A stretch of 64,000 nucleotides of DNA from Candidatus Tumulicola sp. (GCA_036490475.1 DASXDT010000002.1:186001-250000), one strand, 5' to 3'; shown: positions 28,879 through 47,011, counted from the first letter of the stretch. Program-made: numbers and translations. Notes: generated by a model from the letters alone, not told the origin.

Positions 28879-29667
28879 GTGAAGCTTCTCGAAGGTAAGC
28901 GCGCGCTGGTCACGGGCGTCGCCAATCGTTGGTCGATCGCCACCGGCATCGCCCAAAAATTGCATGAGTATGGAGCACAAATCGCGCTCGCGTATCAGGG
29001 AGAGCGCCTGCGCGGATCGGTCGAAAAGGTCGCCGCCGAACTCGAAGGCACCCGTTTGGTCGAATGCGACGTGTCGTCCGACGAATCGCTGGCCGCGGCT
29101 CGCGACGATCTCGCCGCAAACTTTGGCCCGATCGACGTTCTCGTCCATTCGATCGCGTATGCCAACAAAGAAGATTTGAGCGGCAAGGTGTTCGATACGT
29201 CGCGTTCGGGTTTCGGGCTCTCGCTCGACGTATCGGCTTTTTCACTGATCGCGCTGGTCGATGCACTGCGAAATGGGCTGAACGACGGCGCGTCGGTTAT
29301 GGCGCTAACGTACCTCGGTTCGACGCAGATCGTTCCAAATTATAACCTGATGGGCATTTCAAAAGCCGCACTCGAGGCGACCGTTCGCTACTTGGCGTTC
29401 GACCTCGGGGATCGCGGCATCCGCGTCAACGCGATCTCGGCCGGTCCGATCTCGACGGCCAGTTCACGGCAAGTCGGAGGCTTCTCGCGCATTCTCGACG
29501 TGGTGCCGAAGGTCGCGCCGTTGCGCCGCAACGTCACGCCCGGCGACATCGGTGACGTCGCCGTCTACTTGGCATCGCCGCTTTCGTCGGCGATTACTGC
29601 CGACGTGCATTTCGTCGACGCCGGCTACCACGCCATGGGTATGTATCCGCCGGACTTCGGCGGTTGA
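28879..29667 (+). CDS. fabI: Enoyl-[acyl-carrier-protein] reductase (NADH)
   Basis: 262-aa short-chain dehydrogenase of the FabI subtype. It starts at GTG with KLLEGKRALVTGVANRWSIA, the FabI variant of the nucleotide-binding site. Active-site residues fit: Tyr145 (MALTYLGS), Tyr155 and Lys162 in YNLMGISK (Tyr-6-Lys). It reduces enoyl-ACP in the last step of type II fatty acid elongation. Its position between pccB and pccA is unusual, perhaps tying lipid elongation to acyl-CoA carboxylation. The next small gene starts at a TTG overlapping its stop (TTGA), so the two are translationally coupled. Confidence 0.94.
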   Translation: MKLLEGKRALVTGVANRWSIATGIAQKLHEYGAQIALAYQGERLRGSVEKVAAELEGTRLVECDVSSDESLAAARDDLAANFGPIDVLVHSIAYANKEDLSGKVFDTSRSGFGLSLDVSAFSLIALVDALRNGLNDGASVMALTYLGSTQIVPNYNLMGISKAALEATVRYLAFDLGDRGIRVNAISAGPISTASSRQVGGFSRILDVVPKVAPLRRNVTPGDIGDVAVYLASPLSSAITADVHFVDAGYHAMGMYPPDFGG

Positions 29668-29834
29668 GCGAAGTCGACGGCGCGGTATTGGCGGCAATCG
29701 CCGTCGCATTGTCGGCGGGGCGCGTGGAGTCGCAACCGCCGGTCGAAACACAGCCGGCATGGACGATCGCGATGCGCCGTCCCGAATTATCGCTCGACGA
29801 GATAGCCGCGTTGCGGCGAGGAACGCGCCGCTAA
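29664..29834 (+). CDS. Small 56-aa protein between fabI and pccA (possible carboxylase accessory subunit)
   Basis: The TTG start overlaps the fabI stop by 4 bp and the stop is 2 bp before the pccA ATG, so coding is almost certain on context. The peptide opens SEVDGAVLAAIAVALSAG and ends PAWTIAMRRPELSLDEIAAL. Small proteins of similar size, with an N-terminal Ala-rich helix and a Trp-containing tail, sit beside acyl-CoA carboxylase genes in many bacteria (epsilon-like or accessory subunits). That comparison is from memory of layout, not an alignment. It may help assemble PccA with PccB. Confidence 0.65.
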   Translation: MSEVDGAVLAAIAVALSAGRVESQPPVETQPAWTIAMRRPELSLDEIAALRRGTRR

Positions 29835-29836
29835 CG

Positions 29837-31588
29837 ATGTTCTCCAAAATTGTTATCGCCAACCGCGGCGAGATTGCGGTGCGCGTGATTCGCACGACGC
29901 GCGAAATGGGCATCGCGACCGTCGCGGTGTATTCCGAAGCCGATCGCGACGCGTTACACGTTCGAATGGCCGACGAGGCCTACCTCATCGGTCCGGCATC
30001 GCCATCGCTGAGCTATCTCGACTCCAGCAAACTCATCGACGTCGCGCTGCGCTCCGGCGCGCAAGCGATTCATCCCGGTTACGGCTTCCTTGCCGAAAAT
30101 GCCGCGTTCGCTCGCGCCGTCGTCGCCGCCGGGTTGGTTTGGATCGGGCCGCACGCCGATGCGATCGACGTGATGGGCGACAAAATTCGCGCGCGCCAAG
30201 CGATGCAACGAGCCGGAGTGCCGTTCGTACCGGGGGGTACCGAGCCGATCGAAGATGCACGTGCGGCACGAGAGGCCGCGCTCTCGATCGGTTTGCCATT
30301 GGCACTCAAAGCGTCCGGCGGGGGCGGAGGGAAGGGCCTAAAAGTTGCGTTCACACTCGACCAAGTCGAGTCGGCCTTCACCACCGCTCGGAAAGAAGCC
30401 GAAGCGTACTTCAAAAGCGACGTCATTTATGCCGAACGCTATTTAGCGCACCCGAAACACGTCGAGATTCAAATCCTCGCCGACAAGCACGGAAACGTCG
30501 TTCACGTCGGCGAGCGCGACTGCTCGCTGCAGCGGCGTCACCAGAAAGTCTGGGAAGAAGCGCCGGGCGTGGTTCCGGACCGAGCCCGTCGCGGTATGCG
30601 CGAGGCCGCGGTTCGCGCGGCCACCGCGATCGGATACGATTCGGCCGGCACGATCGAATGTTTGGTCGAAAACGGCGAGTTCTATTTTCTCGAAATGAAC
30701 ACTCGGATTCAAGTCGAGCACACCGTGTCGGAAATGATTTCGGGCCTCGACCTGATTCGCGAGCAGATTCGAGTGGCCGCCGGCGAGCCGTTAGGCTTCA
30801 ACCAAGACGATATTCACTTCAACGGTTGCGCCATCGAAGGCCGCGTTAACGCCGAAGATCCCGCTCGAGAGTTTCGTCCGGCTCCCGGAACGATCTCCGA
30901 ATATCGCGAACCGGGCGGCCCGGGTGTGCGCGTCGACTCCGCTGCATATCCGGGCTGGACGATCCCAACCGATTACGATTCGCTCGTCGCAAAGCTGGTG
31001 GTGTGGGCGCCGACGCGCGATCGTGCCATCGCGCGCTTTCGCCGTGCGATCGACGAATATACCGTGCGCGGCGTTCCGACGACCCTTCCGCTGCTGCGGG
31101 CGTTATGCGACGAGTCGCACGTTCTTGACGGAAGCTACGATACGACCACGCTCGAGACGTTCGCTCGCACGATCGCCGAGCCGCTGGACGGTCCGGTGCA
31201 ATCCCCGGCAACGCCGGAACCGCCGGATCGCAGCATCGTTCGCGTCGAAGTCGACGACCGCTTGTATAGGGTGCGGCTTATCGACCTTCCGATCGCGTCT
31301 GCGCCTGTGGGCGGCGCGCAACCCGCGCGTCGTTCGACGCAACGCCGCACCCGATCGGCTTCTGCCGGGGCCACTGGAAATGACGTCGTTTCTCCGATGC
31401 ACGGCATCGTCGTCGAGCTGCGCCCCTCGCAGGGCGATTCTGTGGAGCAAGGCGATGTGGTCGCGATCGTCGAGGCCATGAAGATGATGAACGAGATTCG
31501 AGCGCACAGAAGCGGGACGGTGACGGCCACCCATGCGCCGGCCGGAACCACCGTCGAAACCGGCAGCTCGCTGCTGACCATCGAATAA
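29837..31588 (+). CDS. pccA: Acyl-CoA carboxylase alpha subunit: biotin carboxylase fused to biotin carrier
   Basis: 583 aa. Biotin carboxylase spans ~1-450: FSKIVIANRGEIAVRVIR, IHPGYGFLAENA, ATP-loop KASGGGGGKGLK, GERDCSLQRRHQKV, EMNTRIQVEH. A Pro/Arg linker follows and a biotinyl domain ends the chain, with the biotin-accepting Lys549 in VEAMKMMNE. It carboxylates its own biotin with ATP and bicarbonate and hands CO2 to PccB. Alpha chains with fused BCCP are typical of propionyl/acetyl-CoA carboxylases of bacteria outside the four-subunit AccABCD type. It begins 2 bp after the small gene and ends 6 bp before the mutase gene. Confidence 0.94.
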   Translation: MFSKIVIANRGEIAVRVIRTTREMGIATVAVYSEADRDALHVRMADEAYLIGPASPSLSYLDSSKLIDVALRSGAQAIHPGYGFLAENAAFARAVVAAGLVWIGPHADAIDVMGDKIRARQAMQRAGVPFVPGGTEPIEDARAAREAALSIGLPLALKASGGGGGKGLKVAFTLDQVESAFTTARKEAEAYFKSDVIYAERYLAHPKHVEIQILADKHGNVVHVGERDCSLQRRHQKVWEEAPGVVPDRARRGMREAAVRAATAIGYDSAGTIECLVENGEFYFLEMNTRIQVEHTVSEMISGLDLIREQIRVAAGEPLGFNQDDIHFNGCAIEGRVNAEDPAREFRPAPGTISEYREPGGPGVRVDSAAYPGWTIPTDYDSLVAKLVVWAPTRDRAIARFRRAIDEYTVRGVPTTLPLLRALCDESHVLDGSYDTTTLETFARTIAEPLDGPVQSPATPEPPDRSIVRVEVDDRLYRVRLIDLPIASAPVGGAQPARRSTQRRTRSASAGATGNDVVSPMHGIVVELRPSQGDSVEQGDVVAIVEAMKMMNEIRAHRSGTVTATHAPAGTTVETGSSLLTIE

Positions 31589-31594
31589 GGCCGC

Positions 31595-33175
31595 ATGGCA
31601 CGCGACTGCACTAGTTCGGGGATTCCGATCCAGACGTCATACGATGCGCCCATCGGCAAAGCGCTAGAGCTGGGCGAACCGGGCGCGTTCCCGTTTGCTC
31701 GCGGGATCTATCCGACGATGTACCGCGGGCGCCTGTGGACGATGCGCCAATACGCAGGTTTCGCAACGGCGGCCGAGTCGAACGCGCGGTATCGCTATCT
31801 GTTAGACCGGGGACAGACCGGTCTATCGGTGGCTTTCGATCTTCCGACGCAACTCGGCTACGACTCCGATGCTCCGCAATCGCGCGGCGAAGTCGGCAAG
31901 GCGGGTGTCGCCATCGATTCGATCGACGATATGGAAACGCTGTTCGACGGCATTCCATTGGATCGCGTTACGGTTTCGATGACGATCAATGCGCCGGCGA
32001 CGATTCTGTTTGCGTTCCTGCTCGCGACCGCGCGACGCCGCGGCATCCCGTTCGACCGTTTGGGTGGAACGATTCAGAACGACGTACTCAAAGAATACGT
32101 CGCCCGTGGCACGTACATCTATCCGCCGGTTCCGTCGATGCGACTGATCACCGACGTCATGGCCTACTGCGCGCGCGAAGTACCGCAATGGAACGCTATT
32201 TCCGTCTCTGGCTATCACATTCGCGAAGCCGGCTCGACCGCTGTCGAAGAAATTGCGTTCGCGCTGTCTAACGGTAAGGCATATCTGCAGGCCGCGCGCG
32301 ACGCCGGCATCGACTTGGATTCGATCGCACCGCGCATCTCGTTCTTTTGGAACGCCCATAACGATTTCTTTGAAGAGATCGCGAAATTTCGCGCCGCCCG
32401 CTTGATCTGGGCGCACGTCACGCGCGACGAGTTCGGTTGTCGCGACCCGCGCTCGCAGGCGCTTCGGTTCCACACGCAGACCGGCGGGTCGACGCTCACC
32501 GCCCAAGAACCCGACAACAACGTCGTGCGGGTGACGCTGCAGGCGCTCGCAGCGGTGCTGGGCGGAACGCAGTCTCTGCATACCAATGGAAAGGACGAAG
32601 CGCTCGCGTTGCCCACCGCAGCCAGCGCAAAGGTCGCGCTGCGTACCCAACAGATCGTCGGGTACGAATCGGGGGTCACCGATGTCGCCGATCCGCTGGC
32701 CGGCTCGTTTTACGTCGAGTCCTTGACGAGCGAAATGGTCGAGCGCACCCGCGCCTTGATGGCGGAGGTCGACGCGCTGGGTGGCAGCATCGCCGCCATC
32801 GAGAGCGGCTGGATGCAGTCGCGCATTGCCGAGTCGGCGTATCGGGCGCAGCAAGCCGTCGAGAGCGGCGATTCGGTCGTCGTCGGCGTGAATACATTCG
32901 TCGAACCCGACCAGTCCGATACGGGTATTCCGCTGCAACGGATCGATGCATCGGTCGAACGCGAACAGGTCGAGCGCGTACGACGGAGCCGCGAGGGACG
33001 CAATGCGGCCGATGTCACGACCCAGCTCGAGCACATTCGGGCGACCGCGTCGGGCAGCGGCAACTTGATGCCGGCCTTTATCGAAGCCGCCGATGCCGGC
33101 GCCACGCTCGGCGAAATTTGCGGTGTGTTGCGCGACGTGTTCGGCGTGTACCGCGCGAAGGAGGTCGTCGCCTGA
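31595..33175 (+). CDS. Methylmalonyl-CoA mutase, large catalytic subunit without B12-binding domain
   Basis: 526 aa TIM-barrel subunit. Blocks typical of methylmalonyl-CoA mutase: [82 protein letters not shown], and [18 protein letters not shown]. The chain stops where fused mutases continue into the cobalamin-binding domain (DxHxxG), so a separate ~140-aa B12 subunit is needed and is not in this window. With PccA/PccB and the epimerase it converts propionyl-CoA to succinyl-CoA. Its stop overlaps the epimerase start by one base (TGATG). Confidence 0.93.
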
Positions 33176-33579
33176 TGCAAATCGACCACATCGGCATCGT
33201 CGTAGCCGATCTCGACGAAGCGGTCCGCCTCTACACGCAGACGCTCGGCTTCGAACAATGCTACCGCGAGACGGTGATCGATCAAGGCGTCGAGGTCGTC
33301 GGTTTATCGGCGGGCGATGCGATCGTGGAACTGTTGCGACCGCTGCAGCCGGATTCGCCGTTGCTGCGCTTTCTCGGACAAGCGCGAACGAAAATTCACC
33401 ACACGGCGTATCGCGTTCCGGACCTGCCGGCGAAACTCGCCGAGCTAAAGGCGCGAGGCGTTGCGTTGATCGACGAAACGCCGCGACGAGGTGCGCACGG
33501 AAACGCGATCGCGTTTCTGCATCCAAAGTCGACAAATGGCGTATTGGTCGAACTCTGTCAGCGCATTTCGCACGACTGA
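33175..33579 (+). CDS. mce: Methylmalonyl-CoA epimerase
   Basis: 134 aa of the glyoxalase/VOC fold: two beta-alpha-beta halves starting QIDHIGIVVADLDEAVRLY and KIHHTAYRVPDLPAKL. The metal ligands expected are His4 (HIG), His in IHHTAYRV, and the C-terminal Glu in VLVELCQ. It interconverts (S)- and (R)-methylmalonyl-CoA, between PccAB and the mutase. The ATG overlaps the mutase stop by one base. It is the last gene of the propionate operon; no obvious terminator follows. Confidence 0.95.
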   Translation: MQIDHIGIVVADLDEAVRLYTQTLGFEQCYRETVIDQGVEVVGLSAGDAIVELLRPLQPDSPLLRFLGQARTKIHHTAYRVPDLPAKLAELKARGVALIDETPRRGAHGNAIAFLHPKSTNGVLVELCQRISHD

Positions 33580-35915: not shown

Positions 35916-36692
35916 TTGATTTCGGGTCCACGCGAGCGGCGCCGGCGAGAGATTGCCGGCTCGACCATCGCCTCCATTCTGGTGCACGTTCTCGTGCTGG
36001 CGTTGCTGTTTGCGTTCGTAAAATCGATCGTGATGACGCCGGCCGGTAGTGGCGAACGCGTATCCGAAACGACCTCGCTTTCGCTCGAGCATCAGATACG
36101 CCAGAAGACCAAGCCGCACAATAAGGCCCACCCAAAACATCGAATCACGTCGCCGCCCCTACCGGCGTTGCACGAGCTGTCGCGTGAGAATCCGAACGCA
36201 CCCTCGCAACCGCCACCGCAGCACGTCGCCATCAACGTCCCTCGAACGACTGCCGTTTCGAAGCTGCAGCACGATCGCACGGCCTTCGCGGCGGAGGTGG
36301 CACAGCTGAACAAGGGCAACGACCCGCACGCAATTCCGACCATCGATCCCGCGGCGCGCGGATCGGCCACCAAAGACTACGCATTTCAGGCCGGCGCAAG
36401 CCAGGGCTCAGATCACGGAAACGGCATCATCACGCCGGTGCGAAGCTGGCAGGCGGGCGGCAAGGACTGCTATTTCGCGCGCTACGAGTACACGTACCCG
36501 ACCGGCGCAATGGAAGACGGTACGATCGTGTGGCCCATCTGCTACGACCCAGGCTCCGATCCGTTCCATTTACCACCGCATCCGATGGAGTTTCCACTGC
36601 CGATGTTAGGATTCGTCCTCCCGGCCGGTACGGAATTACCGCCGTTGGAGAAAGACGCCTACCAACGGTACGAAGCCCAAGTCGCACATTAA
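35916..36692 (+). CDS. Single-pass membrane protein with TonB-like architecture
   Basis: 258 aa from a TTG with AAGGAG placed well upstream (35901). After a basic start (GPRERRRREIAG) there is one membrane helix (STIASILVHVLVLALLFAFV), then a Lys/Pro/His-rich periplasmic stretch (KTKPHNKAHPKHR, NAPSQPPPQH) and a compact C-terminal part with GKDCYFARYEYTYPTG and PICYDPG. The order helix, proline-rich linker, C-terminal domain is that of TonB energy transducers, but the C-terminal domain lacks a convincing TonB signature, so this is a candidate only. Two cysteines may pair in the periplasm. It overlaps the convergent marC stop by 4 bp. Confidence 0.75.
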   Translation: MISGPRERRRREIAGSTIASILVHVLVLALLFAFVKSIVMTPAGSGERVSETTSLSLEHQIRQKTKPHNKAHPKHRITSPPLPALHELSRENPNAPSQPPPQHVAINVPRTTAVSKLQHDRTAFAAEVAQLNKGNDPHAIPTIDPAARGSATKDYAFQAGASQGSDHGNGIITPVRSWQAGGKDCYFARYEYTYPTGAMEDGTIVWPICYDPGSDPFHLPPHPMEFPLPMLGFVLPAGTELPPLEKDAYQRYEAQVAH

Positions 36693-37333
36693 TGGTGCAC
36701 GAGCGGCGTTTGGGCCAACCCATTGATAACGAACTGCACCGCTAGCGCGGCGAGAATTATTCCGAGTAATCGGCTCGCAACGTGGACACCGGTGGTCGTT
36801 ACCAGCTTCAACAAGAGCGTCGATCCGCGCATGCAAATCCAGGTCACGAACAACGCTGCCGCATAGGCCCCCGCGACGATCGTCAGGTTCGCGCGGTCGC
36901 CATGCGCGAGACTAACAAGAAGCAATACTGTCGCGATCGTTCCGGGGCCGGCGATCATTGGAATGGCCAGTGGGAAAACGGCCGGATTCTCGACCTCGGC
37001 GGCTTCGCGTTCCTCGGCTTCGGTTCGCTTGGCTCCGGTGGGACGGGCAAACAACATATCGATCGCGATCAAGAACAGCAATACACCGCCGGCAATCGTA
37101 AACGCCGGCAACGTGATGCCGAGATAGCCCAAGATTTCTCGACCCACGAAACCCATCAGCGCCATGACGACTGCGGCGACGATGACGGCTTGATCGATGA
37201 TTTGGTTGCGGCGCTTCGCCGGCATGCGCGCGGTCGCGCCCAGCGTCATGGGAATCATGCCGAGGGGATCGATAATCGTAATTGCAGTGGCGAATGCCGT
37301 CGCCGCGAACCGGACGTCCATCGAGTCCATCAT
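36689..37333 (-). CDS. MarC-family integral membrane protein
   Basis: 214 aa with about six membrane helices. MarC/NAAT family features: ITIIDPLGMIPMTLGAT near the start, IAGGVLLFLIAIDMLF in the middle and PLAIPMIAGPGTIATVLLL later. The family name refers to the mar region of E. coli; the substrate is unknown, though an archaeal member was described as an amino acid transporter. It is the last gene of the minus-strand peptidoglycan-recycling series, 27 bp after the DUF4127 stop, and shares a 4-bp stop overlap (TTAA) with the gene on the other strand. Confidence 0.9.
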   Translation of the reverse strand: MMDSMDVRFAATAFATAITIIDPLGMIPMTLGATARMPAKRRNQIIDQAVIVAAVVMALMGFVGREILGYLGITLPAFTIAGGVLLFLIAIDMLFARPTGAKRTEAEEREAAEVENPAVFPLAIPMIAGPGTIATVLLLVSLAHGDRANLTIVAGAYAAALFVTWICMRGSTLLLKLVTTTGVHVASRLLGIILAALAVQFVINGLAQTPLVHH

Positions 37334-37360
37334 ACCAGCGCCGTCACGAACGTGGCAATG

Positions 37361-38878
37361 TCAGAGATTCGGCGCTATGCCGACGTCGACTTCGGTTTCG
37401 AAGGTGCGCCGCCACGGCAACGAGATATCGATCGCCGCGATGTGATATCCGGGATCCAGTTGTTGAAGGATTGCCGCGGCTCTATTCCATAGCAACGCGC
37501 GGTTCCGGCTCGCCACGACGGCGGCATCGGCCGGCGTCAGTAAGGTGTGGTCGGCGATACCCCGTTGGTCGAGCCACGCGTTGAGTTGCGGGCGCACGTC
37601 GTCGTGATAGGCGTAATCGTCGACGAATCGCATGAACGTAAACGTGCGATGCGCGAGCGAGTCGTACGTGTGCATGCGCCGTCCGGCACCGGCGGCAACG
37701 GATTCGGCTAATGCGGTGCCGACGGTGTTGGCATTCGTATTCCAAGAAGCGTACGCGTCGAGTCGAGCGGCCAAACCGCTCGTTAGCACTCGATCGGCGA
37801 AGCCGGCTTGCGAAGCATAGGAGTCGAAAAATCCAAGATCTGCAAGGGCGACGCTGCGTCCGGTCCCAATATCGGCTCGCATCGCGGATGCAAAGGCGTC
37901 GTCCTGCGCGGTACTCGTTTGAGGGACTCGAACGGCCAAGACGATATCCGGATCCCTATCGACCAGCTGCCCACCACATAACGCGATCAAGCCGTCGATG
38001 GCGACCGATATGGGAGCGAATTCCAGCGGATCGACAAATTCATCTCCACCGGGACGCGAGTACCGTACTTGTACGCGAGGTGCCCAACGTGCGTCGCGCG
38101 CGAACGTGCCCGCAAGTAACGCCATTCCCAATTCGTCGGCGCCCGGCTCGATGGCCGGCGCCGGACTGGCCGCAACCGCGGCCGCCTCTTGCTGTAAGAG
38201 CTTTACTTCGGCGACGTGCAAGCCGACCGGACCGGCATCGTCTTGCCCCAGCGCGAGTCGATCGAGCGTTCCGGAAGCGCGCATCGCAATCAAGTGCCGG
38301 TCGACGTCGAGATTACGGCGGCGCGTCGCGAGGTATGCATCGAACGTTGCCGGATTCAACGAGGCGCGCAAGGCGGCCGCGGTCGCTTCTTCATTCGGCA
38401 GCAACGGGTCGTGCAAGTTGGCATACTCTTGCAACGCTTGCCATTCGGGATACGCGGCGAAATACGAGGTTCCGGCCGGGACACCGGTCGGTGCCAGTCG
38501 CATGACCGTTCCGAACGCCACAATCCACGCGTCCGGGCGACGATGACGGACCGTTTGCAATACGGCGAGCCGTTGTAGCGCACCGGCGTACGACGGACCC
38601 GGCACACGGGACGCGACGAGCCCTCCATAGGCCAGCATGTCGGACGAAACGACGTATGCGCCGATAGTCGGATCGTTCGAACGAGCCGTCAACCAATCAA
38701 CGACACCGTCGGCATCGCCGGGCTGCAGATAATTGCCGAGTATCGTGCGCGGCGGCGTCGTTACGGTGACGCCGGCGATGCGTCCGAGAAGCGCCGGAAG
38801 TTGCGCGCTAACCGGGCGATCGTCGAGTGGCACGAACGCGATCGTCGCCAACAACGACAGCGCGTGCAACACGTTCAC
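37361..38878 (-). CDS. DUF4127-family protein in the peptidoglycan-recycling operon
   Basis: 505 aa. The family signature FVPLDDRPVSAQLP lies just after a hydrophobic start (NVLHALSLLATIA), which could be a signal peptide or buried strand. Other blocks: SNDPTIGAYVVSSDMLAYGGLVASR, ASWNTNANTVGTALAESVAAG and FVDDYAYHDDVRPQLN, all typical of DUF4127. Biochemical function is unknown. The GTG start overlaps the murQ stop by 4 bp (GTGA), tying its translation to murQ. A role in muropeptide or amino-sugar salvage is inferred from this coupling. Confidence 0.88.
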   Translation of the reverse strand: MNVLHALSLLATIAFVPLDDRPVSAQLPALLGRIAGVTVTTPPRTILGNYLQPGDADGVVDWLTARSNDPTIGAYVVSSDMLAYGGLVASRVPGPSYAGALQRLAVLQTVRHRRPDAWIVAFGTVMRLAPTGVPAGTSYFAAYPEWQALQEYANLHDPLLPNEEATAAALRASLNPATFDAYLATRRRNLDVDRHLIAMRASGTLDRLALGQDDAGPVGLHVAEVKLLQQEAAAVAASPAPAIEPGADELGMALLAGTFARDARWAPRVQVRYSRPGGDEFVDPLEFAPISVAIDGLIALCGGQLVDRDPDIVLAVRVPQTSTAQDDAFASAMRADIGTGRSVALADLGFFDSYASQAGFADRVLTSGLAARLDAYASWNTNANTVGTALAESVAAGAGRRMHTYDSLAHRTFTFMRFVDDYAYHDDVRPQLNAWLDQRGIADHTLLTPADAAVVASRNRALLWNRAAAILQQLDPGYHIAAIDISLPWRRTFETEVDVGIAPNL

Positions 38879-39759
38879 AGCAGCGGGCGCAACATGCCGC
38901 CGCTGCGTTTCAGCAGTTCCGCAGCGGCGACGGGATCGACGCCCCGGCGTTCGCAAACGATCGCGATCTTCACGCGTCCATCGCTACGGTCGAGCGCCCC
39001 GATCGCTCGTTCGCGGTCGACCTCGGCGATCGATTCCACCAATCGGATCGCGCGCTCGCGCAACTTGCGATTAGCAACGACGACGTCGACCATTTTATTG
39101 CCGAAGACTTTACCGAGCCGCACCATGATGGCGGTCGAGAGTGTGTTCAGCACGATCTTCTGCGACGTTCCAGCTTTTAAGCGCGTCGACCCGGTCAACG
39201 CCTCGGGACCGGTTGCAAGTTCGATCGTCTCGTTCGCGACGTCGGCCAACGGACTGCCTGCAGCGTTAACGATGGCAACGGTATACGCGCCGGCCGCCGT
39301 CGCCGCCGCCACCGCACCGATCACAAACGGCGCCGTGCCGCCGGCAGATATTCCATACACGGCGTCGCCGGCGGTCACGCAATCGCCTACCACTCGTTCG
39401 CCGCCGGCTCGATCGTCTTCGGCTCCTTCGATCGCATGCGTCAGCGCGGCGGTGCCTCCGGCGATATGCGCAGCGACCAGCTCGTCACCGGCGCGAAAGG
39501 TCGGGTATAGTTCGGCTGCGTCGAGAACGCCGAGGCGGCCGCTGGTTCCGGCCCCCACATAATGCAGCCGCCCGCCTTGGCGCAACCGCTGCACGGTGCG
39601 CTCGACGACGCCGGCAATCGTTGCGGCGTGGGCCGCAACGGCGTCGGCGGCGCGCTGTTGATCGGCGACCAACAGCCGAACCAATTCGCCGGTAGAAACG
39701 ACATCGAGTCGAGCGGTTTGCGGGTGTTCGCCCTCGGTCGCCGGCAGGTCGACGCTCAA
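38875..39759 (-). CDS. murQ: N-acetylmuramic acid 6-phosphate etherase
   Basis: 294 aa SIS-domain enzyme. Typical MurQ sequence: LHYVGAGTSGRLGVLDAAE near residue 65, YGISAGGTAPFV, and TGSTRLKAGTSQKIVLN with the conserved GSTRxKAGT block. It cleaves the lactyl ether of MurNAc-6-phosphate to GlcNAc-6-phosphate and D-lactate. The upstream neighbours NagZ, the AmiE-like hydrolase and AnmK would supply MurNAc-6-P. It overlaps both neighbours (4 bp each side), so it sits mid-operon. Confidence 0.95.
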   Translation of the reverse strand: MSVDLPATEGEHPQTARLDVVSTGELVRLLVADQQRAADAVAAHAATIAGVVERTVQRLRQGGRLHYVGAGTSGRLGVLDAAELYPTFRAGDELVAAHIAGGTAALTHAIEGAEDDRAGGERVVGDCVTAGDAVYGISAGGTAPFVIGAVAAATAAGAYTVAIVNAAGSPLADVANETIELATGPEALTGSTRLKAGTSQKIVLNTLSTAIMVRLGKVFGNKMVDVVVANRKLRERAIRLVESIAEVDRERAIGALDRSDGRVKIAIVCERRGVDPVAAAELLKRSGGMLRPLL

Positions 39760-40655
39760 TCGAGCGACATTCCGGCCATACGCAATGCGCCTTCATGCGC
39801 GGAGTGCGCCGCGCGCAACGTGTGCAGTTGCGGGAGTTCGTTGCCTAATCGCGTTTCCAGTAGATACGTCAACGTGCTCGGCGTTCGTAACAAGCCGCCG
39901 TGCAACACCAGCGGCGTCTCGTCGCCGGCATCGATCGCACGGACGACCGCGCGCACCAGGTCGAACAAATCGCGTGCAGCCGCCTGTACGATCGTTAATG
40001 CACTGCGCTCGCCGTCATCGGCGCACCGCAGAATCGCGGGAGCGACGCCGGCGATCGCGGAGACCGGAGACGCATCGCCGTACGCAAACGCAAGAAGTCC
40101 ATCTCGGTCGCTCGCGCCCGTGTATTCGCGAACGGCCGCGACGGTGCGATCCGACGCCCCCCGGCCATCCAACGCGCGCAACGCTAAACGGAGACCGGCA
40201 GAACCGATCGCGTACCCGGACCCCTCATCGCCGATGGCATATCCGCCGCCTCCGCATCGCGAACTGCGGCCGGCATTTTCACCGTACGCGCTCGAACCCG
40301 TCCCTGCGATGAGCACGACTCCCCGCTCTCGCACTTCCGCGGCGTATAACGCCAGTCGCGCGTCGTCGATCACTTGAATGCGCGCGTTAGCGAAGCGATG
40401 TTGCAGCGCATCGCGCAACGCGCCCGCGATCTCGGAGCGTGCGGCGCCGGCGCAGCCGACCACGATCGAGCGCGGTTGCTCGGAGCGGAGCGCCGCGACG
40501 ATCGCGTCGCCGATGGTCGCAGCCGCCGCATCCAGTCCTACCGACGTCGGATTGGCCGCTGCAGTTTCTACTCGATTGCGCGCGTCGCCGATGCCGGCCA
40601 CCGCAATCGTACGGCTGCCGCCCGCGTCGACGCCTACGTCGACCGGCATTCGCAT
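39756..40655 (-). CDS. BadF/BadG-type ATPase, likely N-acetylglucosamine/N-acetylmuramate kinase
   Basis: 299 aa of the ASKHA fold: phosphate-1 motif VDVGVDAGGSRTIA at the start, VLIAGTGSSAYGENAGR in the centre, and YAIGDEGSGYAIGSAGLRLAL, which resembles the GlcNAc kinase (NagK) and MurNAc kinase (MurK) group. Within this operon it would phosphorylate GlcNAc freed by NagZ, or MurNAc freed by the AmiE-like hydrolase, feeding MurQ. Sequence alone does not settle which sugar. It overlaps the anmK end by 22 bp if ATG 40655 is used; a second ATG lies 6 bases in. Confidence 0.88.
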   Translation of the reverse strand: MRMPVDVGVDAGGSRTIAVAGIGDARNRVETAAANPTSVGLDAAAATIGDAIVAALRSEQPRSIVVGCAGAARSEIAGALRDALQHRFANARIQVIDDARLALYAAEVRERGVVLIAGTGSSAYGENAGRSSRCGGGGYAIGDEGSGYAIGSAGLRLALRALDGRGASDRTVAAVREYTGASDRDGLLAFAYGDASPVSAIAGVAPAILRCADDGERSALTIVQAAARDLFDLVRAVVRAIDAGDETPLVLHGGLLRTPSTLTYLLETRLGNELPQLHTLRAAHSAHEGALRMAGMSLD

Positions 40656-41779
40656 TCCATACGCGCCATCAACTCCGATAACCGGTGCGGTGCGATCGCA
40701 CCCAAGACCGTTGCCTCGCGCGCGCCGGTCGCCGCCGGGACGTTGGCCGGCCGGCCCCGCAGCGTTTCATAACCCAAAATCGCAAAGGCGATCGCTTCTT
40801 TAGCATCGCTCGACACCGCATGATCGTCGGACGTATCGACGCGGGCGTGTGGAGCGAAGCGCCGCAAGCGCGCCATCAAATCCGGATTACGCGAGCCACC
40901 GCCGCTGACGATGACGCGCGGAGCCGCGAACGCCGTTGCGGCGATTGCGTCCGCGACCGTCCGGGCGGTCAATTCGGCCAGGGTCGCGGCGCCGTCGGCA
41001 TCGGCGAGTGCCCTCAAGCGCGCGTCGTGCTTCGCCAAGAATCGTTCGGCGAAGTATTCGCGACCGGTGCTCTTGGGTGGAGGTAGCGCGAAATACGCAT
41101 CGGCCGACATCGCGGCGAGCAACTCCCGGTCGACCGTTCCTCGCGCCGCCAGCACCCCATCGCGATCCATCGTGAGTTGGCCATTCGAGCGAGAACGCAC
41201 GAAGGCATCCAGCAGAATGTTTCCCGGGCCGGTGTCGTACGCGCAGGATACCGAGCCACTGCCGCGCGCGAGCACCGTCACGTTTGCGATCCCGCCGATG
41301 TTGATCGCAACGCGATCTTCGAGCGGATGTGAAAATAACAACGCGTCGACGTAGGGCACCAGCGGAGCGCCATGACCTCCGGCGGCGCAGTCGGCACCGC
41401 GAAAATCGAAGCACACTGTAGCGCCGATGCGGTCGCGCACGACGTACGGATCGCCGATTTGCACCGTCGATGCGTTGGCGCCGTCGTGCCAAATGGTCTG
41501 GCCGTGCGACGCGACGAAGTCGATGCGGCCTTCTGCAACCTTCTCCGCAGCATCGGCCAGGGCGTCCCCGAGCCGGCGGTGCAGTGATGCCGCCGTCGAG
41601 ACGTTCGCGACGTTCGGCGGCAAGGCGTCGCGCAATTGCGCGTACAGCTCTTTTCCGAACGGCACGGTTACGAACCGCTTGAGTTCTACGGCGTAGCCCG
41701 GACCGGACGGTACTAGCTCGATCAGCGCGGCATCGATTCCGTCCAACGACGTTCCGCTCATCAATCCGATGACCCTCAC
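40634..41779 (-). CDS. anmK: Anhydro-N-acetylmuramic acid kinase
   Basis: 381 aa. It starts at GTG with RVIGLMSGTSLDGIDAAL, the AnmK family signature, followed by DFVASHGQTIWHDG, VAINIGGIANVTVL and FDTGPGN-like YDTGPGNILLDAF. The longer upstream frame is a shadow of the previous gene; the GTG overlaps that gene's stop by 4 bp (GTGA). AnmK phosphorylates and opens 1,6-anhydroMurNAc to MurNAc-6-P. Anhydro sugars come from lytic transglycosylases, usual in diderm bacteria. Confidence 0.95.
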   Translation of the reverse strand: MRVIGLMSGTSLDGIDAALIELVPSGPGYAVELKRFVTVPFGKELYAQLRDALPPNVANVSTAASLHRRLGDALADAAEKVAEGRIDFVASHGQTIWHDGANASTVQIGDPYVVRDRIGATVCFDFRGADCAAGGHGAPLVPYVDALLFSHPLEDRVAINIGGIANVTVLARGSGSVSCAYDTGPGNILLDAFVRSRSNGQLTMDRDGVLAARGTVDRELLAAMSADAYFALPPPKSTGREYFAERFLAKHDARLRALADADGAATLAELTARTVADAIAATAFAAPRVIVSGGGSRNPDLMARLRRFAPHARVDTSDDHAVSSDAKEAIAFAILGYETLRGRPANVPAATGAREATVLGAIAPHRLSELMARMECECRST

Positions 41780-42816
41780 GCGAGACCCAACGCACGCATG
41801 GCCGCCTCGAAAAATGCCGCTCGCAACGGCCGGGTATCGGAGCGACCAAAATACACGGAGTTCGTGAGGAGTACCGCGGCGACGTCGACGATCGGGTCGG
41901 CCCAGACGCACGTTCCGACGAATCCCGTATGCCCGAAGCTTTCGCGATGCATGAAACGTCCGCACGAATTATCATCCCGCGTCTTGAGGGCCCAACCCAA
42001 TCCCCGCCGCAACACCGGATCGAAAGCCTGCTCGGAGATCGCTTCGCGCGCCAACGCGGCGCTTATTCCGCGCGCTCCCCGATTGTTGCGTGGCGCTAGA
42101 TACATTTCGGCCAGCCCCGCAACGTCCGCAGCGGTTCCGAAAAGACCCGCGTGCCCTACGACGCCGCCCATTAAATGCGCTTTTTCGTCGTGCACCGTTC
42201 CTTGCACGCGGCCGCGCCACGCATCGCTCTCGGTCGCCGGTATTGCCGATCGATCTCTCAACCGCACTCCATAGCGCAACGTCTCGGAATCGAATCGCTC
42301 GCGCATCATCGTCGCTAAGTTGCGGCCCGTGGCGCGCTCTAGAATCGTCCCGAGCGCGATGAATCCTAGGTCGCTATACGTGACCCGTTCGCCCGGCGTA
42401 TCGTCGAGCTCCCGATTCAGGGCGAACCGCTCGACGTTCTCATCGAGGATCGTGCGATAGTCGGCGCCCGAGTGCATCCCCGAATTGTGCGCCAGCAACA
42501 TCCGCAGCGTAATCGTGGCGTGGCCGGTGCCCGACCATTCGGGTACGAGCCTCGTTAACGGTGTGTCGAGCGCCAGAATCGATTCGTCGACCAGCGTGAG
42601 TGCGACCGTCGCGACGAACGGCTTGGTCAAGGACGCCAGATCGAAACGCGAATCGACGCAAACGTCGCGCGCGAGTTCGTCCGCTCGGGTCGTTCCGACG
42701 GCGCGCTCGTACACGGGCCGGCCGCGATGTTCGATGCGTGCGACGGCGCCGGTATATTGCGCGGCGGTCGCGGCATCCAGCACGGCATCGACGCCGGCAA
42801 ACGCGGCGCGCGTCAC
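41776..42816 (-). CDS. Serine hydrolase of the beta-lactamase/DD-peptidase superfamily (AmiE-like candidate)
   Basis: 346 aa. Penicillin-binding active-site triad: SxxK at Ser62-Lys65 (ASLTKPF), Tyr147-Ser-Asp in TYSDLGF, and His296-Thr-Gly in FGHTGFVG. No signal peptide is seen, so it should be cytoplasmic, unlike secreted beta-lactamases. GTG 42816 overlaps the nagZ stop by 4 bp (GTGA). In Bacillus subtilis the nagZ-linked AmiE (YbbE), a member of this superfamily, removes the peptide from MurNAc after NagZ acts. The same gene pair here suggests the same MurNAc-L-Ala amidase step; class C beta-lactamase or esterase activity is the alternative. Confidence 0.85.
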   Translation of the reverse strand: MTRAAFAGVDAVLDAATAAQYTGAVARIEHRGRPVYERAVGTTRADELARDVCVDSRFDLASLTKPFVATVALTLVDESILALDTPLTRLVPEWSGTGHATITLRMLLAHNSGMHSGADYRTILDENVERFALNRELDDTPGERVTYSDLGFIALGTILERATGRNLATMMRERFDSETLRYGVRLRDRSAIPATESDAWRGRVQGTVHDEKAHLMGGVVGHAGLFGTAADVAGLAEMYLAPRNNRGARGISAALAREAISEQAFDPVLRRGLGWALKTRDDNSCGRFMHRESFGHTGFVGTCVWADPIVDVAAVLLTNSVYFGRSDTRPLRAAFFEAAMRALGLA

Positions 42817-44297
42817 CACGACAGATCGACCGGCAAACGGCCCTCCGGCAAGACGTTTGCGAAGAGCACGTCGGCGAGTCCGCCGATCGCCGCAGCGTCG
42901 TCCCCATAACACGCCACCACGTGTCGTGCGTGCGTAAAGAGCGGCACGTCGAACGGCTCGAGCGCCGATACGACGAGCGCATCCGGGTAGCGCGCGACGA
43001 TCGATCCGATGGCGTCGGCCTGGCGGTCGTACAGATGCGCGCGACGCGCGAGCACGATGGGACGGCGACCGGTACGCGCGAGCAGCGCAAACGCTCCGTC
43101 GAGCGCTCCGGGCTGCGGATCGATCGGCAACGCGACATACGCGAGTGCCGGCGCTTCCGCCGACAACGACGGACGGCGCACGTCGTCGGGAACCACGCCG
43201 TCGGCCGTCGTTCCCTCGAACGAGAGCACCGCACAAGTCAGCGGATCGGCGTGTGCCAGCCCACGCACGAGTGTAACGGCGCGGCGCGCGATTTCACGGC
43301 CGACACCAGGATGCGGCGGAAACTCGTGGACTGCTAATGCATCACTCGAGGTCGAGCGCACGCGCACGATCCGTTCGTACGCATCGCTCAGACGTTGGAG
43401 GGTCAGGCGTTCTTCTGCAACGGCCTGCACGATTGCATCGACGGCCGATTCGGCAGCGTCCCACGGCCGGCTTACGATCACTGCATCGGCACCGGCCAGC
43501 AACGCCGACACCGCCGCCTGCGACGAGTCGCCGGCGCCGGCCATCGTCAGACAATCGGTGATTGCGATACCGGTAAAGCCGAGTCCGCGCAGCACGCCGC
43601 CGGCGATCCTTTCGGACGCACTCGCGACGCGGTTTTCGTCCAGCGCTCGCACGACGACGTGCGCGAGCATGATCGCCGGCGCTTCGGCGGCGACCCGTGC
43701 GAACGGAGCGAGATCGCGCCGCTGCAGCGTCTCGGCATCCGCCTCGACCACCGGCACCGTTTCGTGCGAATCTTCGGTCGTGTCGCCGTGACCCGGAAAG
43801 TGTTTGTAGCACGGCACGATACCGCCGCGTTCCAAACCACGCGCGAAGGCGAATGCCAGCTCGCCGACGCGTGCCGGATCCGAGCCGAAAGATCGCGTGC
43901 CGATTGCCGTATTCCGCGCTTGCAACGCAAGATCGAGGACCGGTGCGAAATCCATCGTGCAGCCGGCCCGGCGCAGATCGAACGCCACTTGTTCGCCGGC
44001 TCGCACGGCAAGTTCGAGATCGCCCACCGCTCCGAGTGCCATCATCGACGGCATCGGCTCAACGCCGCGACGCAATCGGACGACGCGTCCGCCTTCTTGA
44101 TCGATCGCGATAACGGGAGGCGGCCCCGGCGCGCACCGCTCTCGAAGCCCGGCGGTCAACTGGTGCACGTCGTCGATCGACGGATCGTCGCGACCGAACA
44201 GCACGTATCCGCCAAACGACGGGACGCTCGAGCTTTCGACGATGCGATCGATTCCGGCGAAGACGACGCCGCGCGCGAGTTCCGCGATGCCGGTCAT
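42813..44297 (-). CDS. nagZ: Beta-N-acetylhexosaminidase, glycoside hydrolase family 3
   Basis: 494 aa. GH3 NagZ motifs: IAIDQEGGRVVRL, the NagZ-specific loop KHFPGHGDTTEDSHE with the catalytic His178-Asp176 pair, and nucleophile Asp248 in ITDCLTM. Lack of a signal peptide makes it cytoplasmic, as for recycling NagZ. It removes GlcNAc from GlcNAc-(anhydro)MurNAc muropeptides. The chain is longer than the ~340-aa proteobacterial NagZ and has a C-terminal alpha/beta domain as in Gram-positive forms. Its ATG overlaps the ABC ATPase stop by 4 bp (ATGA). Confidence 0.94.
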   Translation of the reverse strand: MTGIAELARGVVFAGIDRIVESSSVPSFGGYVLFGRDDPSIDDVHQLTAGLRERCAPGPPPVIAIDQEGGRVVRLRRGVEPMPSMMALGAVGDLELAVRAGEQVAFDLRRAGCTMDFAPVLDLALQARNTAIGTRSFGSDPARVGELAFAFARGLERGGIVPCYKHFPGHGDTTEDSHETVPVVEADAETLQRRDLAPFARVAAEAPAIMLAHVVVRALDENRVASASERIAGGVLRGLGFTGIAITDCLTMAGAGDSSQAAVSALLAGADAVIVSRPWDAAESAVDAIVQAVAEERLTLQRLSDAYERIVRVRSTSSDALAVHEFPPHPGVGREIARRAVTLVRGLAHADPLTCAVLSFEGTTADGVVPDDVRRPSLSAEAPALAYVALPIDPQPGALDGAFALLARTGRRPIVLARRAHLYDRQADAIGSIVARYPDALVVSALEPFDVPLFTHARHVVACYGDDAAAIGGLADVLFANVLPEGRLPVDLSW

Positions 44298-45259
44298 GAT
44301 ATCGCGGCGCCGCTCGCGCGATCGTATCGCACGACAAAACGTTCCGGTAAGTCGACCTCTACCTCGTCGCCTGGAGCGGCGGACGACTCGGACGCAACAC
44401 GCGCAGCGACGATTCCCCGCTGCGTTTGGACCGTCACGTATGCATCCGCTCCGGTGCGTTCGCGCCGTACGACACGTCCGTGTAAGGCACCGCCCGCGCC
44501 CACCACCACGCGCTCCGGACGGATACCGACGATCGGCTCGCCGTCGAGCAAATTCATCGGCCGCGATCCGATCGCGCGCGCCGCTGCGAGGCTGCGCGGC
44601 GCGTCGTACACGCGCTGCGGATCGCCCGAGTCCTCGATGCGCCCGTCGATCAGCACCGCCAGCGAATCCGCAACGGCTAACGCTTCCTCGTGATCGTGCG
44701 TCACGTAGATCAACGGTCCGGCGAAGCGCTGCCGGATACCGATGACTTCATCGCGCACCGAACGTCGCAATACCGGGTCCAAATGCGCGAGAGGTTCGTC
44801 CATCAGCAGAACGACGGGATCCGAAAGCAACGCGCGCGCCATTGAGACGCGCTGGCGTTCGCCGCCCGACAGTTCGCGCGGCTTGCGACGGCGCAGATGT
44901 CCGACGTGCAACGCTTCTGCAACGTCCGCCGTGTCGGTTTCGCTCTTTTTCGAATGCGAACCGAATCGAAGATTCGCTTCGACCGTCATGTGCGCGAACA
45001 ACGCATCTTCTTGAAAAACGACGGCGATGCGGCGACGCTGCGGCGGCACGCCTAGGAGGCTGCGTCCGTCGAGATTGATATCGCCGCTGCGAATCGACAG
45101 CAGGCCGGCGATCGCGCGTAGCAGCGTGGTCTTACCTGCTCCGGATGGTCCGACGATCGCTAAGGTGTGTCCCGACGGGACGGCGGCCGAGACGCGATCG
45201 AGCGCGGCCGGGCGGTTCGCGCCGTAACCGGCGACGACGTGGAGAATACCGAGGGACAC
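44294..45259 (-). CDS. ABC transporter ATP-binding protein, MalK/UgpC/MsmX-like with TOBE domain
   Basis: 321 aa. Walker A GPSGAGKTTLLRAIAG near residue 37, Q-loop FQEDALFAHMTVEANL, signature LSGGERQRVSMARALL, Walker B VVLLMDEPLAHLDP, switch His in VTHDHEEAL. Beyond ~230 a short TOBE-like domain (VGIRPERVVVG) marks it as a carbohydrate or polyamine importer ATPase. No permease or binding-protein gene is in the operon, so it is an orphan that may energise a permease elsewhere, as MsmX does for several sugar importers. Its GTG directly follows the stop of the 95-aa gene and its stop overlaps nagZ. Confidence 0.92.
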   Translation of the reverse strand: MSLGILHVVAGYGANRPAALDRVSAAVPSGHTLAIVGPSGAGKTTLLRAIAGLLSIRSGDINLDGRSLLGVPPQRRRIAVVFQEDALFAHMTVEANLRFGSHSKKSETDTADVAEALHVGHLRRRKPRELSGGERQRVSMARALLSDPVVLLMDEPLAHLDPVLRRSVRDEVIGIRQRFAGPLIYVTHDHEEALAVADSLAVLIDGRIEDSGDPQRVYDAPRSLAAARAIGSRPMNLLDGEPIVGIRPERVVVGAGGALHGRVVRRERTGADAYVTVQTQRGIVAARVASESSAAPGDEVEVDLPERFVVRYDRASGAAIS

Positions 45260-45547
45260 TCAGCCGACGATCGAGGCGTACTCGCGCCTGGCCGACTCGT
45301 CACCGGCATGAATGCGTTGCACGGCGTCGCGAACGGCGGTTACCGCGGCGTCATCGGCCACCTTCCCAGCCAAGACGAGACGCACGGCCATGAGTGCTAA
45401 GTCGGGCGTTCGCTCGCCAAGCAGGCGTATGCCCTCTAAGAAGGGCGCAGCCGGGCCGGAGGGCGGCAGTTTTGCCAATTGTTCGACGACCGATGCCTTC
45501 GCCGGCCGGCCGTCGAGAAGATAGCCGTCGAGCAACTCGAAATCCAT
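45260..45547 (-). CDS. Unknown 95-aa protein, first gene of the peptidoglycan-recycling operon
   Basis: 95 aa, mostly helical by composition (SVVEQLAKLPPSGPAAPFLE; ALMAVRLVLAGKVADDAAVT), no membrane segment and no cysteine. Its stop is immediately followed by the ATPase GTG, so it is in the operon. It matches no family I know. The start ATG lies only 3 bp from the divergent protease start, and no ribosome site is visible; leaderless translation or a different start is possible. Confidence 0.65.
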   Translation of the reverse strand: MDFELLDGYLLDGRPAKASVVEQLAKLPPSGPAAPFLEGIRLLGERTPDLALMAVRLVLAGKVADDAAVTAVRDAVQRIHAGDESARREYASIVG

Positions 45548-45550
45548 GCC

Positions 45551-47011
45551 ATGGGCTTCGTCGTCCGCGCTGCCGTGCTCTGCGTGCTGACTCTAGGAAT
45601 CATTGCCGCCGCTCCATCGAGCGATCTCGGCCGGTTCCTCGATCGCATGCGCTCTGCGGCCGGTCCGGTGTGGAACGCACACTTCGTCTCGGTTTCGCGT
45701 TTGAACCTCGAAGGGCAAAGCACCGTCGTCGCCAGCGAAAGCCGCGGACTGGCGTTCGTATTGCGGCGGTGCAACGGCGAACTGTGTGCCGGGTCGTATT
45801 TCGACGGCGCGCACCTCTACGCGATCAACATCAACGATAGTGCCGTCCGCAGCGGCGACCCCGAGCCGTACCTTCGATCGCTGCGATTGATCGCATCGCT
45901 CAGCTTTCTTTCGCCATCGTTCTCGTCGCAACAAAACGGCCGCATCGTGGATGGCGGGATGGCCGCCTATCGCGGGGTACGATATCGAACGTTTTACATT
46001 ACCGATACGATCGCGATACCGCTGCGGTTATACGTCGACCCGCACGACGCACTGATTCGATACGCTCGCGATCTGAACGGTGACGATACCTTCGAGTATC
46101 GCGACTACCGTCGAGCCGACGGATTCGACGTTCCCTATGAAGTGCTGCACAACGGCGTCGTGCTCGAACGCTACGACGACCGCACTGCCGTCGCGTCGGC
46201 ATTCCACGCTCCGCACGGCTTGCTGCCGCGCTTCGCCGGATCGCCCGCACCGATCAAGACCGATCCCGCACACGTCACGCCGGTCGTCGACTGCACGGTT
46301 GCGGGCGTTCCGATTCACTGCTTGATCGATACGGGCAACTCGGGGATGTCGATCAGCACCGAACTAGCGGCACGCCTCGGCGCCGACGTGTTGGGCACGT
46401 ATAACGTACGCGGGTTGGGCGAGTATGCCACCCAGGTGGTGCGAGCCGGCCCGCTACAGGTCGGAAATGCGACCTTTCCCGAGGCCTATTACGTCGTACT
46501 GAACGACATTTCGCGCTATGGCTACGACGTCGTTCTCGGGGCGGACTTCGTGGGATCCAGCGGCTTGACGATCGACGCTCACGATCACACCGTGTCGCTT
46601 GGAAAGGCGGTTCCAGCCAACTCGATCTCGATACCGTTATCGTTCGAAAATTTCGTGCCGGTCGTGAACGTACGCTTGGGCGACGTCGACGCCCGCCTAG
46701 CGGTCGACACCGGCGATGAGTCAAATATCAACTTGTCGTACGGCTTTTACACGTCGCATTCGACGCTGTTTTCGGTCACCGAACGCAAGCTCGTTAGTGG
46801 CATCGGCGGCGAGAGCGTCGAGCTCATGGGCAATATCCCGCAGGTCACGATCGGCGCGTATCAGACCGGGCGGCAAACGATCGGCACCACGCAGATGCTG
46901 CACGGCACGGCGCTCGGGCATCTAGGCGCGGCGTTCTTGCAGCAATTCACGGTGCAGTTTGATTACGACGCCGGCGAATTGCACTTGCTCCCGAATCCGC
47001 CGCCCGGCTAG
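45551..47011 (+). CDS. Secreted retropepsin-like aspartyl protease with two DTG motifs
   Basis: 486 aa. Signal peptide GFVVRAAVLCVLTLGIIAAA from ATG 45551. The first ~230 residues are beta-rich with no recognised domain. Two retropepsin-like units follow: LIDTGNSG (Asp260) with a downstream VVLGADFVG, and AVDTGDES (Asp386) with ALGHLGAAFL, both fitting the aspartyl-protease family PF13650. Two units in one chain can form a pepsin-like active site with one Asp from each. It should act in the periplasm or outside. Its start abuts the divergent 95-aa gene, and its end is 4 bp from the convergent hydrolase gene. Confidence 0.88.
   Translation: MGFVVRAAVLCVLTLGIIAAAPSSDLGRFLDRMRSAAGPVWNAHFVSVSRLNLEGQSTVVASESRGLAFVLRRCNGELCAGSYFDGAHLYAININDSAVRSGDPEPYLRSLRLIASLSFLSPSFSSQQNGRIVDGGMAAYRGVRYRTFYITDTIAIPLRLYVDPHDALIRYARDLNGDDTFEYRDYRRADGFDVPYEVLHNGVVLERYDDRTAVASAFHAPHGLLPRFAGSPAPIKTDPAHVTPVVDCTVAGVPIHCLIDTGNSGMSISTELAARLGADVLGTYNVRGLGEYATQVVRAGPLQVGNATFPEAYYVVLNDISRYGYDVVLGADFVGSSGLTIDAHDHTVSLGKAVPANSISIPLSFENFVPVVNVRLGDVDARLAVDTGDESNINLSYGFYTSHSTLFSVTERKLVSGIGGESVELMGNIPQVTIGAYQTGRQTIGTTQMLHGTALGHLGAAFLQQFTVQFDYDAGELHLLPNPPPG

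Follow-up and report, generated by a model that had tools for sequence, protein, structure and literature searches.

E. coli-type recycling of peptidoglycan employs NagZ, AmpD, AnmK, MurQ, NagA, NagB, AmpG and LdcA. In Bacillus subtilis, the recycling cluster is arranged as murQ-murR-murP-amiE-nagZ-ybbC(namZ) (PMC5061867). BadF-family MurNAc/GlcNAc kinases have been described as MurK in Clostridium acetobutylicum and Tannerella forsythia, and the T. forsythia protein is a PF01869 enzyme (PMC5790795). Here, we focus on a run of genes in a 64,000-nucleotide stretch of DNA (the window) from the genome of a poorly studied soil bacterium of the Vulcanimicrobiota ("Ca. Eremiobacterota"). The run is a peptidoglycan amino-sugar salvage operon conserved at the level of the order. 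Our preferred reading, to which we assign a probability of about 0.45, is that its DUF4127 protein is a true member of this operon and likely an enzyme acting on N-acetylhexosamine-containing saccharides that feeds it. DUF4127 occurs widely, is strongly conserved and has no name; the operon sets N-acetyl amino-sugar salvage as its likely field and narrows the candidate substrates.

Gene layout and protein identities

A sequence-only reading of the window had described nine genes on one strand, and all nine open reading frames are found in the window sequence at 36689-45547 on the minus strand. The first gene (45260..45547) encodes a 95-aa protein that has no Pfam or NCBIfam match and whose homologues occupy the corresponding position in most family loci. 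It abuts (0 bp) the GTG-initiated gene for an ABC transporter ATPase of the MalK/UgpC type with a TOBE domain (44294..45259; PF00005 1.2e-34, PF08402). The top NCBIfam model for the ATPase, PRK11650, is matched below its cut-off, and no permease or binding-protein gene lies beside it in the operon. The next gene, nagZ (42813..44297), encodes a GH3 beta-N-acetylglucosaminidase that lacks a signal peptide (PF00933 1.2e-57), carries the NagZ-type loop KHFPGHGDT.xDSH and has PDB 6k5j as its best match (1.3e-56). It is followed by an S12/beta-lactamase-type serine hydrolase (41776..42816, GTG start; PF00144 5.1e-49) and by anmK (40634..41779, GTG start; PF03702 1.9e-103; PDB 3qbw 6.4e-64), the gene for anhydro-N-acetylmuramic acid kinase. 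The BadF-family sugar kinase encoded at 39756..40655 (alternative ATG at 40649; PF01869 3.3e-28) is probably a MurNAc/GlcNAc kinase: its nearest PDB sequence is the MurNAc/GlcNAc kinase 8zo3 (4.5e-28), and MurK/NagK is its nearest solved relative. The MurNAc-6-phosphate etherase gene murQ (38875..39759, TTG start) yields a protein above the NF003915 cut-off (3.4e-101; PDB 4s12 3.1e-60). The 505-aa DUF4127 protein (37361..38878; PF13552 1e-104) starts with a GTG within the murQ stop, and a MarC-family membrane protein (36689..37333; PF01914 1.2e-55) completes the run.

Pfam, NCBIfam and PDB sequence searches firmly identify NagZ, AnmK, a BadF kinase of the MurNAc/GlcNAc type and MurQ, and likewise back the family assignments of DUF4127 and MarC. 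NagZ, AnmK and MurQ are thus encoded together, which we took as the mark of a recycling operon. For the hydrolase, the sequence supports membership of the S12 family and does not reach as far as AmiE: the PDB entries closest to it are S12 enzymes of a generic kind (1ci8, 1.5e-20), and it is AmiE-like by context only.

The junctions are tight. Overlaps of 4 bp join the ABC ATPase gene to nagZ, nagZ to the hydrolase gene, the hydrolase gene to anmK, the kinase gene to murQ (TTGA) and murQ to the DUF4127 gene (GTGA), the last of these being the proposed coupling. The sixth overlap, between anmK and the kinase gene, is 22 bp as first counted, or 16 bp if the second ATG is used. The DUF4127 gene and marC are separated by a gap of 27 bp, which holds the only good promoter-like match of the run; the number of such matches equals chance, so this match is weak. 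Only in two genera is marC the next gene downstream of DUF4127; a third genus has it at a distance of 1.8-5.3 kb, and it is absent from the remaining DUF4127 neighbourhoods of the family and sister family. Hence, we judge MarC to be adjacent and uncoupled, and no functional member of the operon as had been assumed. At the other end of the run (window 45547-45560), the 95-aa gene and a divergent aspartyl-protease-like gene start ~10 bp apart, and thus there is no space for ordinary promoters between them.

Genomic context of DUF4127

PF13552 is found in 127 of 149 genomes of the phylum. In the family and its sister family, 41/44 loci from 36 genera have murQ no more than 5 kb upstream of DUF4127 and in the same orientation. 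The other three loci comprise a paralogue (L037), a copy truncated where its contig ends (L065) and a copy that appears to be unlinked (L062). The murQ/DUF4127 stop-start overlap recurs in at least 17 loci of these genera. Linkage and overlap are therefore repeated well outside the window genome, in support of a salvage operon for muropeptide sugars to which DUF4127 belongs as a recurrent and translationally coupled member. The usual order in the family is 95-aa protein, ABC ATPase, NagZ, S12 hydrolase, AnmK, (kinase), MurQ and DUF4127, with the BadF kinase gene absent in two genera. This gene order is beyond chance, as it recurs across the family.

Among 99 genomes of the family, 90 have both DUF4127 and MurQ, and no genome with DUF4127 lacks a strong MurQ. 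Three genomes have MurQ only, in two cases at a contig end, and the remaining six have neither protein. AnmK is missing as well from four of the six and lies at a contig end in the other two. The four genomes that have lost murQ, anmK and DUF4127 keep namZ in 4/4 and nanE in 3/4 cases. Because the whole operon is gone in these four and the genes run off contig ends in others, the joint loss of murQ and DUF4127 carries reduced weight as independent evidence. Furthermore, a wide flanking block that includes the aspartyl protease, methylmalonyl-CoA mutase and other genes is also syntenic within the family, and thus local gene order is weaker evidence than it appears. The methylmalonyl-CoA mutase/epimerase part of this block (window 29351-33579) lies beside the operon on the other strand and is functionally unrelated to it.

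At class level, some genomes have a NagZ-S12-AnmK-MurQ cluster without DUF4127, and in others DUF4127 lies next to a branched-chain-type ABC transporter, with 7-14 kb between it and murQ. In deeper lineages and other classes, DUF4127 occurs without AnmK or without amino-sugar neighbours. DUF4127 is therefore neither required by the pathway nor limited to it. One genus carries a DUF4127 paralogue (L037, L157, L163) that reads FVPMYATP in place of FVPLDDRP (D19Y, R21T); having lost part of a conserved motif, it is possibly inactive or altered.

Outside the phylum, we compared 25 loci picked by DUF4127 alone. The linkage does not extend to these: neither murQ nor anmK lies near DUF4127 in any of the 25. 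Of the 25 loci, 11 have an AGE or NanE epimerase and 13 have a FAD_oxidored protein; GH20 or NagZ is encoded in several of them. The typical sets are AGE-MFS-DUF4127-SusC-SusD-FAD_oxidored-GH20 in Cytophagales, RpiR-NanE-HAD-DUF4127-PTS in Carnobacterium and Enterococcus, and AXE1-DUF4127-ROK-ManA-PTS-NanE in Priestia; in a Deinococcus, DUF4127 accompanies NagZ and a sugar ABC transporter. Linkage of DUF4127 to the use of N-acetyl amino sugars is thus recurrent, with partners that differ; the Cytophagales loci are related and not independent. In three Acidobacteriota loci (L176, L172, L184), a 12-helix transporter-like protein of ~430 aa that has no Pfam match is encoded at or near DUF4127. 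Among viral structures (BFVD), the 693-aa A0A346TNQ6 is clearly DUF4127-like (TM 0.85, 24% identity), and no phage carrying such a protein was found in the phage collection searched.

The window genome (3.32 Mb, 96% complete) yields no TIGR00901 match for the importer AmpG and no PF02016 match for the L,D-carboxypeptidase LdcA. With these two not found and the S12 hydrolase not shown to be AmiE, the description of the run as a full cytoplasmic salvage line was overstated. Muropeptide import is the largest gap of the pathway, for which the orphan ABC ATPase is a candidate part; an ABC route for muropeptide import is known in Agrobacterium (PMC9790009). The sole PF01182 match adjoins zwf and is read as 6-phosphogluconolactonase, and no type-I NagB was found in the genome. 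A NagA-like gene is present, which weakens the idea of DUF4127 as the missing NagA. A role of DUF4127 as a NamZ equivalent (PF07075) was discarded, given an hhalign probability of 0.3% against a NamZ of the same phylum and a NamZ encoded elsewhere in the genome. Genes for a GlcD-type FAD-linked oxidase and GlcE overlap this namZ (L215:8651-12496; C5, ~729.2-733.0 kb), whose product is an exo-muramidase with a signal sequence. The overlap suggests coupled oxidation of the D-lactate released by MurQ, and the GlcD/GlcE pair would be a likelier D-lactate oxidase than DUF4127. At a separate locus (L222:3458-9819; C6), a second BadF kinase gene overlaps nanE, with a FAD_oxidored-like gene (PF12831) 3.4 kb upstream; in other phyla, such nanE and FAD_oxidored parts accompany DUF4127 itself.

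Fold, compartment and competing explanations

We found no paper naming DUF4127 or PF13552 and no characterised member. The window protein matches PF13552 with 351 bits (curated cut-off 27) over positions 1-488 of 489 and has all conserved residues of the family. The AlphaFold2 model is confident (pLDDT 94.3, pTM 0.93; domain 1 modelled alone, pLDDT 93.7) and predicts two alpha/beta domains followed by C-terminal strands. The structure prediction called for earlier thus gives a well-defined two-domain model but no convincing match in the PDB: phmmer and profile searches found no solved relative there, and Foldseek and VIA, run with the full model and with domain 1, returned PDB fold matches that are weak or tied. 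Response regulators, pyridoxal kinases, sugar-binding proteins, SGNH hydrolases and UPF0261 tie weakly, and hence the reaction cannot be read from the fold. The 29 residues examined are nearly all kept in 57 sequences from six phyla, among them D80, R91, R127, R186, D214, D248, E249, E286, D347, N380, N384, D421 and R429. About 25 residues are nearly invariant and mostly charged, polar or glycine, which together with the confident two-domain fold suggests that DUF4127 is probably an enzyme.

Signal peptides were assigned by a home-made strict Sec-type rule and not by SignalP. By this rule, 16/40 DUF4127 copies in the operon carry one, compared with 0/40 for MurQ, 0/37 for AnmK, 0/34 for the kinase, 0/34 for NagZ and 1/35 for the AmiE-like hydrolase (1/180 for these neighbouring-gene controls pooled). 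In a set drawn mostly from Bacteroidota, Acidobacteriota and Verrucomicrobiota, 16/19 copies have a signal peptide. At least the 16 signal-bearing copies of the operon are thus exported. The window protein has no recognisable signal peptide but a hydrophobic stub of 12-14 residues ahead of the first strand, and some homologues from Firmicutes and deep Vulcanimicrobiota begin directly at this strand. That exported and non-exported forms share one conserved core points to an enzyme whose chemistry is of a single type.

The sequence-only reading had proposed DUF4127 as a new salvage component, for example a cytoplasmic enzyme for D-lactate, peptides or GlcNAc-6-P. A recurrent member and probable enzyme it remains, but a step in the cytoplasm that follows or accompanies MurQ and acts on any of these substrates now seems unlikely. 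Translational coupling to murQ, the lack of a clear signal peptide in the window copy and the homologues that start at the first strand would fit such a step. Signal peptides in many homologues, including those in the operon and nearly all Bacteroidota copies, argue against a cytoplasmic phosphosugar step. Moreover, outside the phylum DUF4127 shows no linkage to murQ, the MurQ pathway occurs without DUF4127 in some relatives, NagA exists and GlcD/GlcE beside namZ fits D-lactate. That DUF4127 is a mere passenger, placed after murQ by general family synteny and not by function, is rather unlikely. The unrelated flanking genes are indeed syntenic across the family and MarC exemplifies a lineage-bound adjacency, but most of the flanking genes run in the other direction and show no coupling, whereas in many genera an overlap couples DUF4127, which also has independent amino-sugar neighbourhoods in other phyla.

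Two further explanations concern the ligand. DUF4127 could be a sugar-binding or sensing protein with a type-I binding-protein-like fold that serves the operon's ABC ATPase or a regulator, given its two alpha/beta domains, the several periplasmic sugar-binding proteins among the VIA matches and the missing permease and binding protein of the ATPase. These matches tie with unrelated folds, however, cytosolic-looking copies beside PTS genes need no binding protein, and charged residues that are invariant in both domains across six phyla look more enzyme-like, which makes this role quite improbable. Alternatively, DUF4127 could free ManNAc (or ManNAc-6-P) from a glycan, from which AGE or NanE then makes GlcNAc or GlcNAc-6-P. 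The adjoining epimerases are non-homologous, namely AGE in Cytophagales and NanE in Bacilli and one Acidobacteriota genome, and in the window genome nanE overlaps the second BadF kinase gene near the FAD_oxidored-like gene. A phylum-wide test gave no support for a tie between DUF4127 and NanE, though: NanE does not follow DUF4127 into loss in most operon-loss genomes and is missing from class-level relatives that have DUF4127. ManNAc is not known to occur in peptidoglycan of this kind, and we regard the release of ManNAc as very unlikely.

Proposed route and relation to described systems

We thus return to the reading of DUF4127 as a true operon member that acts on an N-acetylhexosamine-containing saccharide. 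In the proposed route, (anhydro)muropeptides would enter the cell by a route other than AmpG, NagZ would take off GlcNAc and the S12 hydrolase would possibly cleave off the peptide. AnmK and the BadF kinase would phosphorylate anhydroMurNAc and GlcNAc/MurNAc, and MurQ would yield GlcNAc-6-P and D-lactate. NagA, encoded elsewhere, would deacetylate GlcNAc-6-P, and the resulting GlcN-6-P is probably returned to UDP-GlcNAc since type-I NagB was not found. Judging from the model and from the Asp, Glu, Arg and Asn residues conserved as one set in its two alpha/beta domains, DUF4127 is most likely an enzyme. It would process the saccharide by hydrolysis or lysis and feed the salvage line, in many relatives from outside the cytoplasm; its enzymatic nature, substrate class and place in the route are what we infer from these data. 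More broadly, DUF4127 may represent a new enzyme family for amino-sugar glycans, with two alpha/beta domains in an unusual architecture. Depending on the phylum, its members would be exported or cytosolic, and they would serve cell-wall salvage in Vulcanimicrobiota and the use of GlcNAc/ManNAc glycans in Bacteroidota, Bacillota, Acidobacteriota and Deinococcota. We offer this wider view tentatively, as somewhat less than an even bet. If the enzyme is new, it would add a step to cell-wall turnover and a carbohydrate-active family.

In a phylum of which few members have been cultivated, the operon represents a recycling layout that does without AmpG or LdcA. As in E. coli, the window genome encodes cytoplasmic NagZ, AnmK and MurQ and a NagA-like protein. 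In contrast to E. coli, the recycling steps are encoded in one operon, DUF4127 is present and AmpG, LdcA and type-I NagB are not detectable in the genome. The window kinase is likened to MurK by sequence (best PDB match and PF01869) and is absent in several related operons. For DUF4127 (PF13552), linkage to murQ is seen in this order only, and loosely in the class. Compared with the B. subtilis cluster, the window operon has AnmK and the BadF kinase in place of the PTS, contains neither MurR nor MurP and has DUF4127 as an extra member; its NagZ and hydrolase lack signal peptides, and NamZ is encoded elsewhere with GlcD/GlcE. Common to both is that NagZ, an S12/AmiE-like hydrolase and MurQ stand together for the recovery of MurNAc.
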